From Collimonas sp. PA-H2 (lineage in GTDB: Bacteria; Pseudomonadota; Gammaproteobacteria; Burkholderiales; Burkholderiaceae_D): a DNA stretch of 64,000 nt. Each line of letters starts with the position of its first letter. The stretch's first letter is position 1. The translations under genes were made by a program, and so were the position numbers. The notes beneath the pieces are model-generated. The model ran no database searches. It was not told where the DNA came from and saw only the letters and a program-made list of their open reading frames with translations. The stretch spans positions 1,860,001 to 1,924,000 of the forward strand of contig NZ_PDBX01000001.1 in the NCBI RefSeq assembly GCF_002564105.1. Direction: 5' to 3'. Positions 19,070 to 50,886 of the stretch are shown piece after piece.

Positions 19070-19111
19070 TTGATCGAAATCAACGCCAGGCTGCTTCAAG
19101 TCTTCTAAGAT
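19070..19111 (+). promoter_or_regulatory. FNR-dependent promoter of the desaturase gene
   Basis: TTGATCGAAATCAA at 19070-19083 is a perfect match to the FNR/ANR consensus TTGAT-N4-ATCAA. A -10-like hexamer TAAGAT lies at 19106-19111. If transcription starts near 19118, the box centre falls at -41.5, the position of class II FNR-activated promoters. The desaturase ATG is at 19147 with AAAGG before it. Confidence 0.8.
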
Positions 19112-19146
19112 CAGCCGGCGTTATCTCTATCTCAAAGGTTTGCCAC

Positions 19147-20232
19147 ATGAATTCCTCTCACTTGCCAGAGCCGGCATCACCGTCGGCAGCCATGCCGCAT
19201 CGCAAAGTGATCCGCTCCTGGCTGCTGCCGATTGCGCAACGCGATACCGGCCGTGCGCTGGCGCTGGTGCTGCTTGACCTGTGCCTGTTTTCGGCGGCTA
19301 TCCTGGCCACAGTCTGGCTACGCAATGCCGCCGCGAAATTGCTGCTCGGCGCAGTCGCCGGCTTCATCATCGGCCGTTTGTTCATACTCGGCCACGACGC
19401 CTGCCATCAAAGCTTTACATCGCACCGGCGCCTCAACCGCTGGCTCGGCCGCCTGCTGTTCCTGCCTTCGCTGACGCCTTACAGTCTGTGGGATATGGGC
19501 CATAACGTAGTTCATCACGGCTATACCAATCTGAAGGGTTTCGACTTTGTCTGGCATCCGCTGTCGCTGGAGGAATTTCAGGCGCTGCCGCGCCGGCGTC
19601 AATGGCTGGAGCGCGTCTACCGTAGCGGCTGGGCGCCCTGGCTCTACTATCTGGTGGAAATGTGGTGGCAGCGCATGTATTTTCCGAGCCGCCGCACCAT
19701 GCCGACCCGGCGTCCGGCATTCGTCTGGGATGGCATACTGGTTACGGCAGCGGCGCTGCTGTGGATTGCCCTGCTGGCTGCAGCTGCTCTGGCGACCGCG
19801 CAGCCGCTATGGCTGACCCTGCTGGCCGGCTTTGTGCTGCCTTTGCTGTTCTGGAATGCGATGATCGGCTTTGTGGTGTACGTGCATCACACCCATACCG
19901 GGGTCGCCTGGTATGACCAGAAAACCGTGTGGGCGGCAGCGCAACCGTTTGTCTCCACCACCGTGCACCTGACGTTCCGCTGCCGTATCGGCGCGCTCTT
20001 GCATCACATCATGGAACATACCGCGCATCACGTCGACATGAGCATCCCGCTGTATCGCCTGCAGGAAGCACAGCAGATTCTCGAAACCATGCTGCCCTTG
20101 CGCATCGTGATCCAGAAATTCTCTTGGCGCTGGTATTTTGATACCGCGCGGCGCTGCAAGCTGTACGATTTCCGGCGCCATTGCTGGACCGATTTCTCCG
20201 GCATGCCGACCAGCGCCGCCTGCCTCAATTGA
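19147..20232 (+). CDS. Membrane fatty acid desaturase
   Basis: Integral di-iron desaturases put double bonds into acyl chains using O2. The 361-residue product has the three histidine boxes HDACH (83-87), HNVVHH (119-124) and HHIMEHTAHH (286-295), plus an extra HHTH at 247-250, between paired hydrophobic segments (about 40-80, 195-245). The box spacing fits the FADS-type membrane desaturases; the regioselectivity cannot be read. It lies upstream of fnr on the same strand and has a perfect FNR box at its own promoter. Confidence 0.9.
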   Translation: MNSSHLPEPASPSAAMPHRKVIRSWLLPIAQRDTGRALALVLLDLCLFSAAILATVWLRNAAAKLLLGAVAGFIIGRLFILGHDACHQSFTSHRRLNRWLGRLLFLPSLTPYSLWDMGHNVVHHGYTNLKGFDFVWHPLSLEEFQALPRRRQWLERVYRSGWAPWLYYLVEMWWQRMYFPSRRTMPTRRPAFVWDGILVTAAALLWIALLAAAALATAQPLWLTLLAGFVLPLLFWNAMIGFVVYVHHTHTGVAWYDQKTVWAAAQPFVSTTVHLTFRCRIGALLHHIMEHTAHHVDMSIPLYRLQEAQQILETMLPLRIVIQKFSWRWYFDTARRCKLYDFRRHCWTDFSGMPTSAACLN

Positions 20233-20281: not shown

Positions 20282-20287
20282 TAAAAT
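20282..20287 (+). promoter_or_regulatory. Candidate -10 element TAAAAT upstream of fnr
   Basis: TAAAAT sits 49 bp before the fnr ATG within the string GGTAAAATG. The same string type recurs before the FAD dehydrogenase (24983-24988) and the radical SAM gene (49080-49085). No well-spaced -35 is visible at any of the three. Confidence 0.35.
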
Positions 20288-20335: not shown

Positions 20336-21085
20336 ATGAATCATGCTCCACTCCGTGCAGCGCCGCTGCTGGATGTCCGTGCCCTGCGCACCAGCTGCTC
20401 GTCTTGCAGCATGCATCAGCTATGCCTGCCGATGGGGCTGGATGAAACTGAGATGCAACGGCTCGACGGCATTATCGGCCGCCGCCGCGTATCGCGCGAG
20501 GCCAGCCTGTATCGCATCGGCGACAAGTTCGTTTCCCTGTATGCGGTGCGGGTCGGCCAGTTCAAGACCTCGCAAACCAATCCCGACGGCGCGCGCCAGA
20601 TCACCGGTTTTCAGATGACCGGCGAATTGCTCGGCATGGATGCGATCAGCACCGACACCCATCAATGCGACGCGGTAGCCTTGGAAGATAGTGAAGTCTG
20701 CGAAATTCCATTCGCGCGGCTGGAAGAACTGTTCGGCGAGATTCCGACCCTGCTGCGGCATTTTCATCGCATCATGAGCAAGGAAATCACGCGCGAGCAA
20801 AGCGTCATCCTGTTGCTCGGCAATATGCGCGCGGAGCAGCGCTTTGCGGCTTTCCTGGTAAACCTGTCGTCGCGCTATGCGGCGCGCGGCTATTCACCGA
20901 CCAGCTTCCAGCTGCGCATGACGCGCGAAGACATCGGCAACTATCTCGGCCTGACGATCGAAAGCATCAGCCGCCTGCTGTCCAAGCTCAAGAAGGATGG
21001 CCTGCTGAAAGTCAGCAACAGGGAAATCGAACTGACCGATTTACCGATGCTGAAAGCGCTGGCGACTGGCGCCGAAGCCTGCTGA
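20336..21085 (+). CDS. fnr: Oxygen-sensing transcription regulator FNR
   Basis: FNR dimerises around an oxygen-labile [4Fe-4S] cluster and controls the aerobic-anaerobic switch. The 249-residue product has cysteines at 21, 24, 30 and 122 (CSSCSMHQLC and VCEIPF), matching the four cluster ligands of E. coli FNR. The cyclic-nucleotide-type sensor domain follows, then the helix-turn-helix MTREDIGNYLGLTIESISRLLSK, whose E-x-x-S-R recognition residues predict binding to TTGAT half-sites. Two such sites occur at the flanking desaturase and hemN promoters. It converges with hemN, the stop codons 10 bp apart. Confidence 0.96.
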   Translation: MNHAPLRAAPLLDVRALRTSCSSCSMHQLCLPMGLDETEMQRLDGIIGRRRVSREASLYRIGDKFVSLYAVRVGQFKTSQTNPDGARQITGFQMTGELLGMDAISTDTHQCDAVALEDSEVCEIPFARLEELFGEIPTLLRHFHRIMSKEITREQSVILLLGNMRAEQRFAAFLVNLSSRYAARGYSPTSFQLRMTREDIGNYLGLTIESISRLLSKLKKDGLLKVSNREIELTDLPMLKALATGAEAC

Positions 21086-21095
21086 CGGTCTGGCC

Positions 21096-22523
21096 TCAGA
21101 TGGTTTTTGAATAGCGCAGCGGCGTTCTGTGCGGATCCAGATAACGATCGAACACCATGCAGATATTACGGATCAGCAAACGCCCTTTCGTGGTCACGCT
21201 GATCCAATCCTCATCGATGGTCAGCAAACCATCGGCTTCCAGCTGCCGCAATTGAACCAGCTCGGCGGCGAAATATTCGGCAAACCGGACCGGATGCGCG
21301 ATCTCGATCGAAGCCAGCGACAGTTCGAAATGACACATCAGATGCTGGATGATCAGCCGCCGCAGCAAATCGTCCAGGTTCAGCTTGATGCCACGCGCAA
21401 TCGGTAGTTCCTGCCGGTCGAGCCGCAGATAGTAGGCTTCCAGCGTCTTTTCATTCTGGCTGTAGCTGGCGCCGACAGCGCTGATCGCCGATACGCCGCA
21501 TGCCACCAGATCAGATTCGGCATGGGTCGAATAGCCTTGGAAATTGCGGTGCAAGCGCCCCTGCCGCTGCGCAATCGCCAGATCGTCACCCGGCCTGGCA
21601 AAGTGATCCATGCCGATATACACATAGCCGGCTTCGGTCAAGCGCTGAATGCACAGAAACAGCATGTCGATTTTTTCTGCCGGCGTCGGCAGATCGCTGC
21701 CGGCTATCCGCCTTTGCGGTTTGAACAGGTGCGGCATGTGGGCATAATTGTAGATGGCGATGCGGTCCGGCGACGCCACAATCACCTTCTCCAGCGTTTG
21801 CGCAATGGATGTCAGGCTCTGCTTGGGCAAGCCATAAATCAGATCGATGCCGACTGAACGAAAGCCGGCAAAACGCGCCGCATCGATGATGCGCAGCGTG
21901 TCTTCTTCAGCCTGTATCCGGTTCACCGCCTTCTGCACCGCCGGGTCGAAATCCTGCACGCCCAGGCTGAGCCGGTTGAAGCCTTGGCGGCGCAGCGTGA
22001 CGATACGCTTCGGCGTGACGGTGCGCGGATCGACTTCTATCGAATACTCGCCCAGCTGGCCGGGCGCGAACTGAAAATGCTGATGCAAATGCGCCATCAG
22101 CTCGCTCATCTGGCGGTCGCTGAGATAGGTTGGGGTGCCGCCGCCGAAATGCAGCTGCTCCACCTGGTTCATGCCTTCAAACAAGGCGGCCTGCATCGAA
22201 ATCTCGCGCTTCAGATACGTCAGGTAGAGTGCGGCCTTGCTCAGATTCTTGCTCACCACTTTATTGCAGGCGCAGTAGTAGCAAACCGTATCGCAAAACG
22301 GAATGTGCAAGTACAGCGACAAGGCATGCCGCGCACCCATCGCATGCCGCTCCGACACTGCCTGATGATAGGCTTCGGCGTCGAACTCCGCGGAGAACCT
22401 GTCTGCCGTCGGATAGGAGGTGTAACGCGGTCCGAGCTGGTTCATCCTGCTTAGCAATGCGGGTTCAAACGCCAGCGCAGCCAGCGGCGCTGCTGCGGCT
22501 ATCGTCTCTTGGGAAGTTAACAT
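21096..22523 (-). CDS. hemN: Oxygen-independent coproporphyrinogen III dehydrogenase
   Basis: HemN is a radical SAM enzyme that decarboxylates coproporphyrinogen III to protoporphyrinogen IX without oxygen, in haem synthesis. The 475-residue product has the cluster motif CDTVCYYCACN (C77, C81, C84 and the extra C86), GGGTPTYLS, and the YTSYPTADRF N-terminal motif specific to true HemN. ATG 22523 has GGAG eight bases upstream; in-frame codons up to 22601 run back through the promoter. An FNR box at 22588-22601 fits anaerobic induction. Confidence 0.95.
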   Translation of the reverse strand: MLTSQETIAAAAPLAALAFEPALLSRMNQLGPRYTSYPTADRFSAEFDAEAYHQAVSERHAMGARHALSLYLHIPFCDTVCYYCACNKVVSKNLSKAALYLTYLKREISMQAALFEGMNQVEQLHFGGGTPTYLSDRQMSELMAHLHQHFQFAPGQLGEYSIEVDPRTVTPKRIVTLRRQGFNRLSLGVQDFDPAVQKAVNRIQAEEDTLRIIDAARFAGFRSVGIDLIYGLPKQSLTSIAQTLEKVIVASPDRIAIYNYAHMPHLFKPQRRIAGSDLPTPAEKIDMLFLCIQRLTEAGYVYIGMDHFARPGDDLAIAQRQGRLHRNFQGYSTHAESDLVACGVSAISAVGASYSQNEKTLEAYYLRLDRQELPIARGIKLNLDDLLRRLIIQHLMCHFELSLASIEIAHPVRFAEYFAAELVQLRQLEADGLLTIDEDWISVTTKGRLLIRNICMVFDRYLDPHRTPLRYSKTI

Positions 22524-22559: not shown

Positions 22560-22601
22560 AGCGTAGCGGGCCGAGCCGGCAAGCGCTTTGATATAGATCA
22601 A
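22560..22601 (-). promoter_or_regulatory. FNR-dependent promoter of hemN
   Basis: The perfect FNR site TTGAT-N4-ATCAA covers 22588-22601. On the minus strand a TACGCT hexamer (22565-22560) starts 29.5 bp from the box centre, the same distance as in the desaturase promoter, predicting a start near 22553 and a box at -41.5. The hemN ATG is at 22523. Confidence 0.78.
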
Positions 22602-26762: not shown

Positions 26763-27044
26763 CTAACCTCTTTCAGCGGCCTTGTACGCGGCATTGCGCT
26801 CACGCTTGCCCACCGCCACGACCAGCACGATCAGCTGTTTGTCGCGCACTTCGTAGACCAGGCGATAGCCAGCCTGGCGCAACTTGATCTTATAACGGCT
26901 GCGAGAGCCGGATGGCTGCGCCGAGGGCACATGCGGATTCTGCAAACGCTCTTCCAGCTTATTCTTGAATTGCTCACGCATGCCGGGGTCGAGCTTGCGC
27001 CATTCCTTCAGCGCCTCTTCAAGAAACGCGAGCTCAAAGTTCAT
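26763..27044 (-). CDS. relE: RelE-family toxin (mRNA interferase)
   Basis: RelE toxins cleave mRNA in the ribosomal A site. The 93-residue product aligns closely with E. coli RelE: LEEALKEWRKLDPGMREQFKNKL, then YKIKLRQAGYRLVYEV and VVAVGKRERNAAY. The Lys, Arg and Tyr residues tied to ribosome-dependent cleavage are all present, so it should be active. ATG 27044 overlaps the antitoxin gene end by 11 bp. The reading frame extends to 27095 but only through the antitoxin gene. Confidence 0.94.
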   Translation of the reverse strand: MNFELAFLEEALKEWRKLDPGMREQFKNKLEERLQNPHVPSAQPSGSRSRYKIKLRQAGYRLVYEVRDKQLIVLVVAVGKRERNAAYKAAERG

Positions 27045-27282
27045 CCAGCCTGACCTTGATGACAGCCTGCCCGGTGCGGGCATCCGCAATGGCATTCAGC
27101 TCCATGTCTTCCAGTTTGTTCATCAAGGCCTCATAGGCTTTTGCCGGAACACAGTAGAAGGCAGGCTGGTTCCGGTTCAAGATCGCCACAGGGAATCCCT
27201 CGCCGGTGGCGACGGTCCCCATCGGGTCTTTTTTTAACTCGGAAACACTGGCGGTGGTTTCGGCAAGAATAAGGTGCACCAT
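27034..27282 (-). CDS. stbD: StbD/Phd-type antitoxin of the RelE pair
   Basis: The 82-residue product has an N-terminal Phd/YefM-like DNA-binding part (ETTASVSELKKDPMGTV, EGFPVAILNRNQPAFYCVP) and an acidic C-terminal tail ending IKVRLDEL. That tail resembles the toxin-wrapping tail of RelB and StbD. ATG 27282 is chosen because the conserved domain begins there and inverted repeats lie just upstream; a longer reading to 27360 would run through them. It should neutralise the overlapping RelE and repress the operon. Confidence 0.9.
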   Translation of the reverse strand: MVHLILAETTASVSELKKDPMGTVATGEGFPVAILNRNQPAFYCVPAKAYEALMNKLEDMELNAIADARTGQAVIKVRLDEL

Positions 27283-50652: not shown

Positions 50653-50886
50653 TCTGGCAGCGCTGCTGAGATCAAGCATATGCTGGCGCCACGCTGCGAT
50701 CAGTTGCTGCGCGACGCTGTCCATGGAGGCCAGCGCGACGCTACTGCTGTGATTGATGATCATCAAGGCGTAGACGTTAGCGAGGGCGTTGACCTCCGGA
50801 GATAAAGCGCATTCTTCCCCTATCGCAGGCCGTTGCAGGCGCCAGTAATTGATGGCTTGTTCCAGTTCGGGCAATGAGATATTCAT
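50641..50886 (-). CDS. DUF3717 family protein
   Basis: The 81-residue product (ELEQAINYWRLQRPAIGEECALSPEVNALANVYALMII) matches the DUF3717 family of small betaproteobacterial proteins, which have no assigned function. It is soluble and mostly helical. Its 3' end overlaps that of the convergent radical SAM gene by 12 bp. Confidence 0.8.
   Translation of the reverse strand: MNISLPELEQAINYWRLQRPAIGEECALSPEVNALANVYALMIINHSSSVALASMDSVAQQLIAAWRQHMLDLSSAARSVG

Follow-up and report, generated by a model that had tools for sequence, protein, structure and literature searches.

A predicted class II FNR-type promoter ahead of an oxygen-requiring fatty-acid desaturase in Collimonas and related bacteria

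Introduction

Fnr is known mainly for its part in anaerobic respiration. Oxygen-labile FNR proteins are marked by a CxxCx5C motif, a fourth cysteine and an ExxSR helix, and class II FNR sites are centred at −41.5. Desaturases of the PF00487 type are di-iron enzymes that require O2.

A described system for low-oxygen control of a desaturase comes from Synechococcus 7002, where, according to the available parts of the source, the O2-sensitive Fe–S activator ChlR (MarR type) turns on acsFII, ho2, hemN and desF (PMC4500134). The last of these encodes a low-oxygen desaturase isoform, the loss of which is described there as conditionally lethal under microoxic conditions (PMC4500134). Within the Fnr family, the accessible sections on Herbaspirillum seropedicae report fixNOP and an operon starting with hemN2 as direct Fnr1 targets, along with direct control by Fnr1 of an operon containing fabI (PMC5934665); its main text, supplements aside, nowhere uses the term "fatty acid". 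Phytoene desaturase and spheroidene monooxygenase are among those with FnrL-linked patterns in Dinoroseobacter, as far as the accessible text goes (PMC5398030). Pseudomonas aeruginosa possesses aerobic desaturases and an Fnr-type regulator, Anr, for which the portions available describe a minor effect on fabAB (PMC3462791).

A report of a fatty-acid desaturase under the control of Fnr, Anr or FixK was not found in the literature searched, subscription papers and supplements lying outside that scope. Such control is likewise absent from the parts available of PMC3462791, PMC5398030, PMC5934665, PMC4500134, PMC6515357, PMC6321122, PMC9298515, PMC4042000, PMC6546240 and PMC9866376. Here we describe a Collimonas locus at which an FNR-type box precedes a desaturase gene, and its counterparts in other bacteria.

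Results

Promoter geometry at the Collimonas locus

The window, by which we mean the whole 64,000-nt stretch of DNA analysed (G000:C1:1860001-1924000), lies in a Collimonas genome of 5.95 Mb; the features discussed are collected in Table 1. A sequence-only reading had described a perfect FNR box whose centre lies 29.5 bp from TAAGAT, at the activating position. TTGAT-N4-ATCAA is indeed present in the sequence, and the geometry was reproduced, with a spacing that is conserved across genera: the centre of the box falls at 19076.5, and taking the hexamer as −12 to −7 places it at −41.5. Judged by this −10 spacing, with the start itself inferred, the box thus sits where a class II site would, and the genome has a gene for an FNR that bears both the cluster cysteines and the ExxSR helix. 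The box was also considered as a −35 element, a candidate that was rejected since the distance from TTGATC to TAAGAT, 30 nt, is too long. The promoter is of a known kind (class II, FNR type, as predicted) on an unusual target.

Table 1. Features of the desaturase–fnr–hemN region, in positions of the window
Feature	Position	Strand	Remarks
FNR-type box TTGATCGAAATCAA	19070..19083	+	perfect match; centre −41.5 from inferred start
−10 hexamer TAAGAT	19106..19111	+	22 nt downstream of box
Inferred transcription start	19118	+	deduced from −10; 29 nt to ATG at 19147
AAAGG, Shine-Dalgarno-like	19134..19138	+	CAAAGG in 9 Collimonas alignment rows
Membrane fatty-acid desaturase, 361 aa	19147..20232	+	PF00487
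TAAAAT in desaturase–fnr gap, possible separate fnr promoter	20282..20287	+	aligned loci
fnr, oxygen-responsive regulator	20336..21085	+	NF008365; CxxCx5C, fourth Cys and ExxSR recognition helix
hemN, oxygen-independent coproporphyrinogen III oxidase	21096..22523	−	TIGR00538
−10-like TACGCT, hemN	22560..22565	−	22 nt after hemN box
Second perfect FNR box TTGATCTATATCAA, upstream of hemN	22588..22601	−	box scan

The desaturase and its relatives in the genome

That the gene behind the promoter encodes an O2-requiring desaturase, as the same reading had held, is well supported at the level of class by a PF00487 score of 110.1 bits (gathering cut-off 29.7) and by three histidine motifs, HDACH, HNVVHH and HIMEHTAHH; fixed patterns for these motifs retrieved 90, 110 and 105 of 110 homologues. 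The protein lies outside the DesA/DesB equivalogs NF052548 and NF052549 (59 and 21.4 bits against a 500-bit cut-off). For its relatives the sources give the names fatty acid desaturase or omega-6/delta-12 desaturase, which are labels only. The best named relative among the matches listed belongs to Collimonas humicola and is 98% identical, and a family search located the gene in 5 of 8 Collimonas genomes. A solved structure matching the desaturase by sequence was not found at E 0.01.

Seven PF00487 loci, this one included, were found in the genome, so the window desaturase is not the sole one. The other six lack an FNR-type box with ≤1 mismatch on the stretches examined. Four PF00487 desaturases (L100, L102, L104 and L105) are clustered within 10 kb at G000:C1:2697666-2707257, an arrangement that may represent a biosynthetic cluster of the polyyne type known from Collimonas. 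FabA was not found above the cut-off in the genome, the only match being a weak, FabZ-like one of 28.3 bits against 238.15; the FabA pathway by which unsaturated fatty acids are classically made therefore seems absent.

Neighbouring fnr and hemN genes

Not mentioned in the earlier reading is an fnr gene on the same strand, 103 nt behind the desaturase. Its product matches NF008365 with 258.5 bits (cut-off 228) and displays CSSCSMHQLC (CxxCx5C), the VCEI cysteine and DIGNYLGLTIESISR. It is the sole FNR-type match found in the genome at E 1e-15; other Crp-type HTH matches fall at four genome places. The Crp/Fnr protein at C1:4728303, of which the whole protein was read, is without the ExxSR helix, while for the one at C1:3862710 the view covers the protein start.

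The product of the adjacent hemN scores 572.9 bits against TIGR00538 (cut-off 324.95); the start at 22523 is a chosen one, as the open reading frame extends to 22601. Its upstream region pairs a perfect box with the −10-like TACGCT, arranged as ahead of the desaturase. A ccoN match was not found in the genome at E 1e-20. Elsewhere in the window, a third perfect box, TTGATGATCATCAA (50753-50766), has no TANNNT at 20–23 nt and is probably due to chance, and a small open reading frame on the minus strand (26763-27095) resembles the RelE-type toxin of a toxin–antitoxin pair.

Frequency of the box and of the composite promoter

With up to one mismatch allowed, the window contains three perfect boxes and one one-mismatch box, against a mean of 1.27 in shuffled sequence, where 5 of 100 shuffles reach four. 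Genome-wide, 11 perfect sites compare with 3 in a backward control, so the bare box is not decisive and only mildly special. Requiring TANNNT at 20–23 nt from a perfect box reduces the genome to four places, the desaturase promoter being one of them, against none in the control. These precede genes for a hemerythrin-domain protein, the desaturase, hemN and an ODP-family protein, which by family are all plausible low-oxygen genes, as we infer. The two places outside the window are L004 (G000:C1:1523781), with the box and −10 ahead of the gene for the hemerythrin-domain protein (PF01814), and L010 (G000:C1:3897818), where they precede that for the ODP-family protein, a metallo-beta-lactamase protein (PF19583).

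Conservation in Collimonas and close kin

All 11 Collimonas loci examined that have the desaturase carry the box and the −10, one of the boxes (L036) with one mismatch; the other Collimonas have TAAGAT, TACGAT or TAACAT as the −10, equally far from the box. Alignment of the nine distinct promoters among these loci revealed invariant columns at 9 of 10 positions of the box core, compared with 6 of the 40 upstream columns and 6 of the 22 spacer columns. Over everything outside the box (upstream, spacer and downstream) the figure is 16 of 80 (Fisher p=2e-5 against 9 of 10, a value that ignores relatedness). These counts were made on rows anchored by the pattern, and anchoring cost no Collimonas locus. 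The box is retained in Collimonas G117, whose sequence farther than about 25 nt upstream is unrelated; Glaciimonas soli shares the spacing with Collimonas although the farther flanks differ. Tandem FNR-type boxes, two in number, stand upstream of the desaturase in L027 (G071) and in L017/L039 (Glaciimonas soli).

Conservation across homologues

A homologue set was assembled from 116 loci by retaining the 111 with ≥55% identity; L029-L033 (<55%) were dropped, and the partial L098 was kept and counted as having no box. Dereplication on shared upstream 12-mers reduced the 111 loci to 70. TTGAY-N4-RTCA occurs upstream in 40 of these 70 and is accompanied by TANNNT at 20–23 nt in 39 (66 of 111 before dereplication). 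The corresponding controls for the 39 averaged 0.01 in shuffles, with no shuffle exceeding 1, and gave 0 of 70 in reversed sequence and 1 of 70 in the reverse complement; 15 of 2189 other 350-bp segments from the same loci match. When the distance from 42 boxes to TANNNT was scanned from 0 to 60 nt, 15 fell at 21 and 22 at 22, with at most two at any other spacing.

The pattern was then applied to held-out loci (L112-L139), having been fixed before their upstream DNA was viewed. Matches were obtained for 11 of 28, five of them independent: upstream DNA of L112 and L126 is shared by earlier loci, and that of L118, L122, L124 and L127 by L117. Outside Oxalobacteraceae, and counted prior to dereplication, 40 of the 51 named loci have the arrangement, with carriers that include Variovorax, Hydrogenophaga (1 of 2), Ramlibacter, Limnohabitans, Pseudacidovorax and a Cellvibrio MAG. 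The box and −10 before the desaturase are thus real and more strongly supported than they were from one sequence.

Exceptions and covariation with Fnr

The arrangement is missing from 31 of the 70 dereplicated homologues. It is absent from all seven Herbaspirillum loci with a long match (L040-L046), from 7 of 7 loci of genus g27 and from Glaciimonas L018, one of two species; fnr nevertheless lies near the desaturase in g27 and in 6 of the 7 Herbaspirillum loci. Among 45 genomes, box and Fnr do not covary: 17 have both, 2 the box only, 25 Fnr only and 1 neither (p=0.56), where the Fnr of G008 is a weak match and the box-only G046 is 89% complete. For 13 of the 17 genomes that have box and Fnr together, the Fnr protein was examined and contains CxxCx5C.

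The small genome G174 (L119, genus g74) yielded no Fnr match, and its homologous box is eroded to TTAACCTAGGTCGT with the −10, TATTAT, kept. Co-loss of box and Fnr was considered as a rule for the genus. Of 186 g74 genomes, 155 match Fnr at E 1e-20 and 31 do not, 20 of the 31 being listed; the single-contig sample drawn from them comprised all six single-contig genomes without Fnr among those listed (G174 and five more), two with a weak match only and 33 with a strong match. Stretches without the desaturase (8 of 40) were left out and five earlier genomes were added. The box was present in 22 of 30 genomes with Fnr and in 2 of the 6 lacking a match, both genomes with a weak match only had it, and the rule was not upheld (Fisher p=0.15, with versus without).

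Proposed mechanism and alternatives

We consider it quite likely that Fnr activates the desaturase from a class II promoter as O2 falls, a reading in which Fnr as the binder, activation in place of repression and the physiological purpose are presumed. Falling O2 would allow Fnr to regain its [4Fe-4S] cluster and dimerise; the dimer would bind the box at −41.5 and contact RNA polymerase at a −10 lacking a −35. Extra desaturase, made while some O2 remains, would offset the falling O2 supply, with the outcome that membrane lipids stay unsaturated at the oxic–anoxic edge. The useful range would be microaerobic, as the enzyme still needs O2. In Collimonas, read-through from the desaturase promoter may also raise fnr.

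A rather doubtful alternative is that the box mainly serves to autoregulate fnr, the desaturase and fnr forming one unit in Collimonas within a positive feedback loop. The shared strand and short distance are consistent with this, as is the close proximity of the two genes in other Oxalobacteraceae too. The gap between them has no terminator-like site on the plus strand and no FNR-type box, and the lack of a box makes read-through into fnr possible. Against it, the gap contains TAAAAT in seven and TAGAAT in two of nine aligned loci (eight Collimonas, one Glaciimonas soli), a conservation that argues for a separate fnr promoter. The arrangement also persists outside Oxalobacteraceae with no fnr match in any of the 51 named loci, and the gene downstream of the desaturase lies on the opposite strand in 7 of 12 loci by an ORF-length check; the box there would accordingly serve the desaturase itself and not only fnr. 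In the boxes of those lineages TTGAC or TTGAT paired with GTCA predominates, the G occurring in 25 of 33 boxes (from 33 non-Oxalobacteraceae-like rows with <70% identity, in which the box columns are fixed by construction through pattern anchoring). This makes Fnr less certain as the binder, and another Crp/Fnr-family protein could take its place.

That such a regulator, for example one responding to NO, acts at the site, whether in every lineage or only in some, is nonetheless unlikely. Besides the non-canonical half-sites, it would account for G311, G906, G934 and G046 (89% complete), which have the box and no Fnr match at E 1e-20, and for G933 and G967, where the box coexists with weaker Crp/Fnr matches only. 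The single FNR-type protein found in the Collimonas genome, the missing ExxSR helix of the C1:4728303 protein and the CxxCx5C motif of the Fnr proteins examined all speak for Fnr instead. A chance match without function, for which one could cite the roughly three perfect boxes per genome expected by the backward control, is exceedingly improbable and was rejected in view of the genomic rarity of box plus −10, the cross-genus conservation, the spacing spectrum and the invariant box columns.

Building on activation of the desaturase by Fnr, a wider proposal, in which our confidence is evenly divided, would have an ancestral Fnr class II promoter drive a dedicated low-O2 desaturase across Burkholderiales and at least one Cellvibrio MAG, as a proteobacterial counterpart of ChlR–desF. 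In Collimonas, where FabA was not seen, it would keep lipids unsaturated near anoxia and feed back on fnr.

Comparison with known systems

If this account holds, Fnr would also ration what little O2 is left to the desaturation of lipids, and two unrelated Fe–S sensors, Fnr and ChlR, would independently have taken over a desaturase together with hemN. In soil and freshwater bacteria the locus would further provide a promoter that is easy to test, and with it an approach to the question of how bacteria apparently without FabA hold membrane fluidity as O2 vanishes. The sequence-only reading had called activation of such an enzyme unexpected. That judgement is softened here: the target is unusual, yet the available parts of the sources offer precedent in ChlR/desF and in O2-using Fnr targets (PMC4500134, PMC5934665, PMC5398030).

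With the Group I Fnr1 promoters of Herbaspirillum, the Collimonas promoter shares a canonical box and an encoded Fnr, the Group I motif being "very similar" to canonical Fnr sites in the text available (PMC5934665). It differs from E. coli FNR-type class II and Herbaspirillum Fnr1 promoters in its target, which is an O2-requiring desaturase. The accessible parts of PMC3462791 contain no Anr control of a desaturase gene, and P. aeruginosa has the FabA for which Collimonas gave no match above cut-off.

As portrayed in the available parts of PMC4500134, the ChlR regulon resembles the Collimonas locus in pairing an Fe–S oxygen sensor with hemN and an O2-dependent fatty-acid desaturase. The regulators differ, that linked to the Collimonas locus being of the Crp/Fnr type rather than the MarR type of ChlR, and so do the enzymes, DesF being an isoform of the delta-9 desaturase DesC whereas relatives of the Collimonas enzyme are labelled omega-6/delta-12. 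On this partial view of the cyanobacterial system, the two look like a case of convergent logic with regulators that are not homologous.
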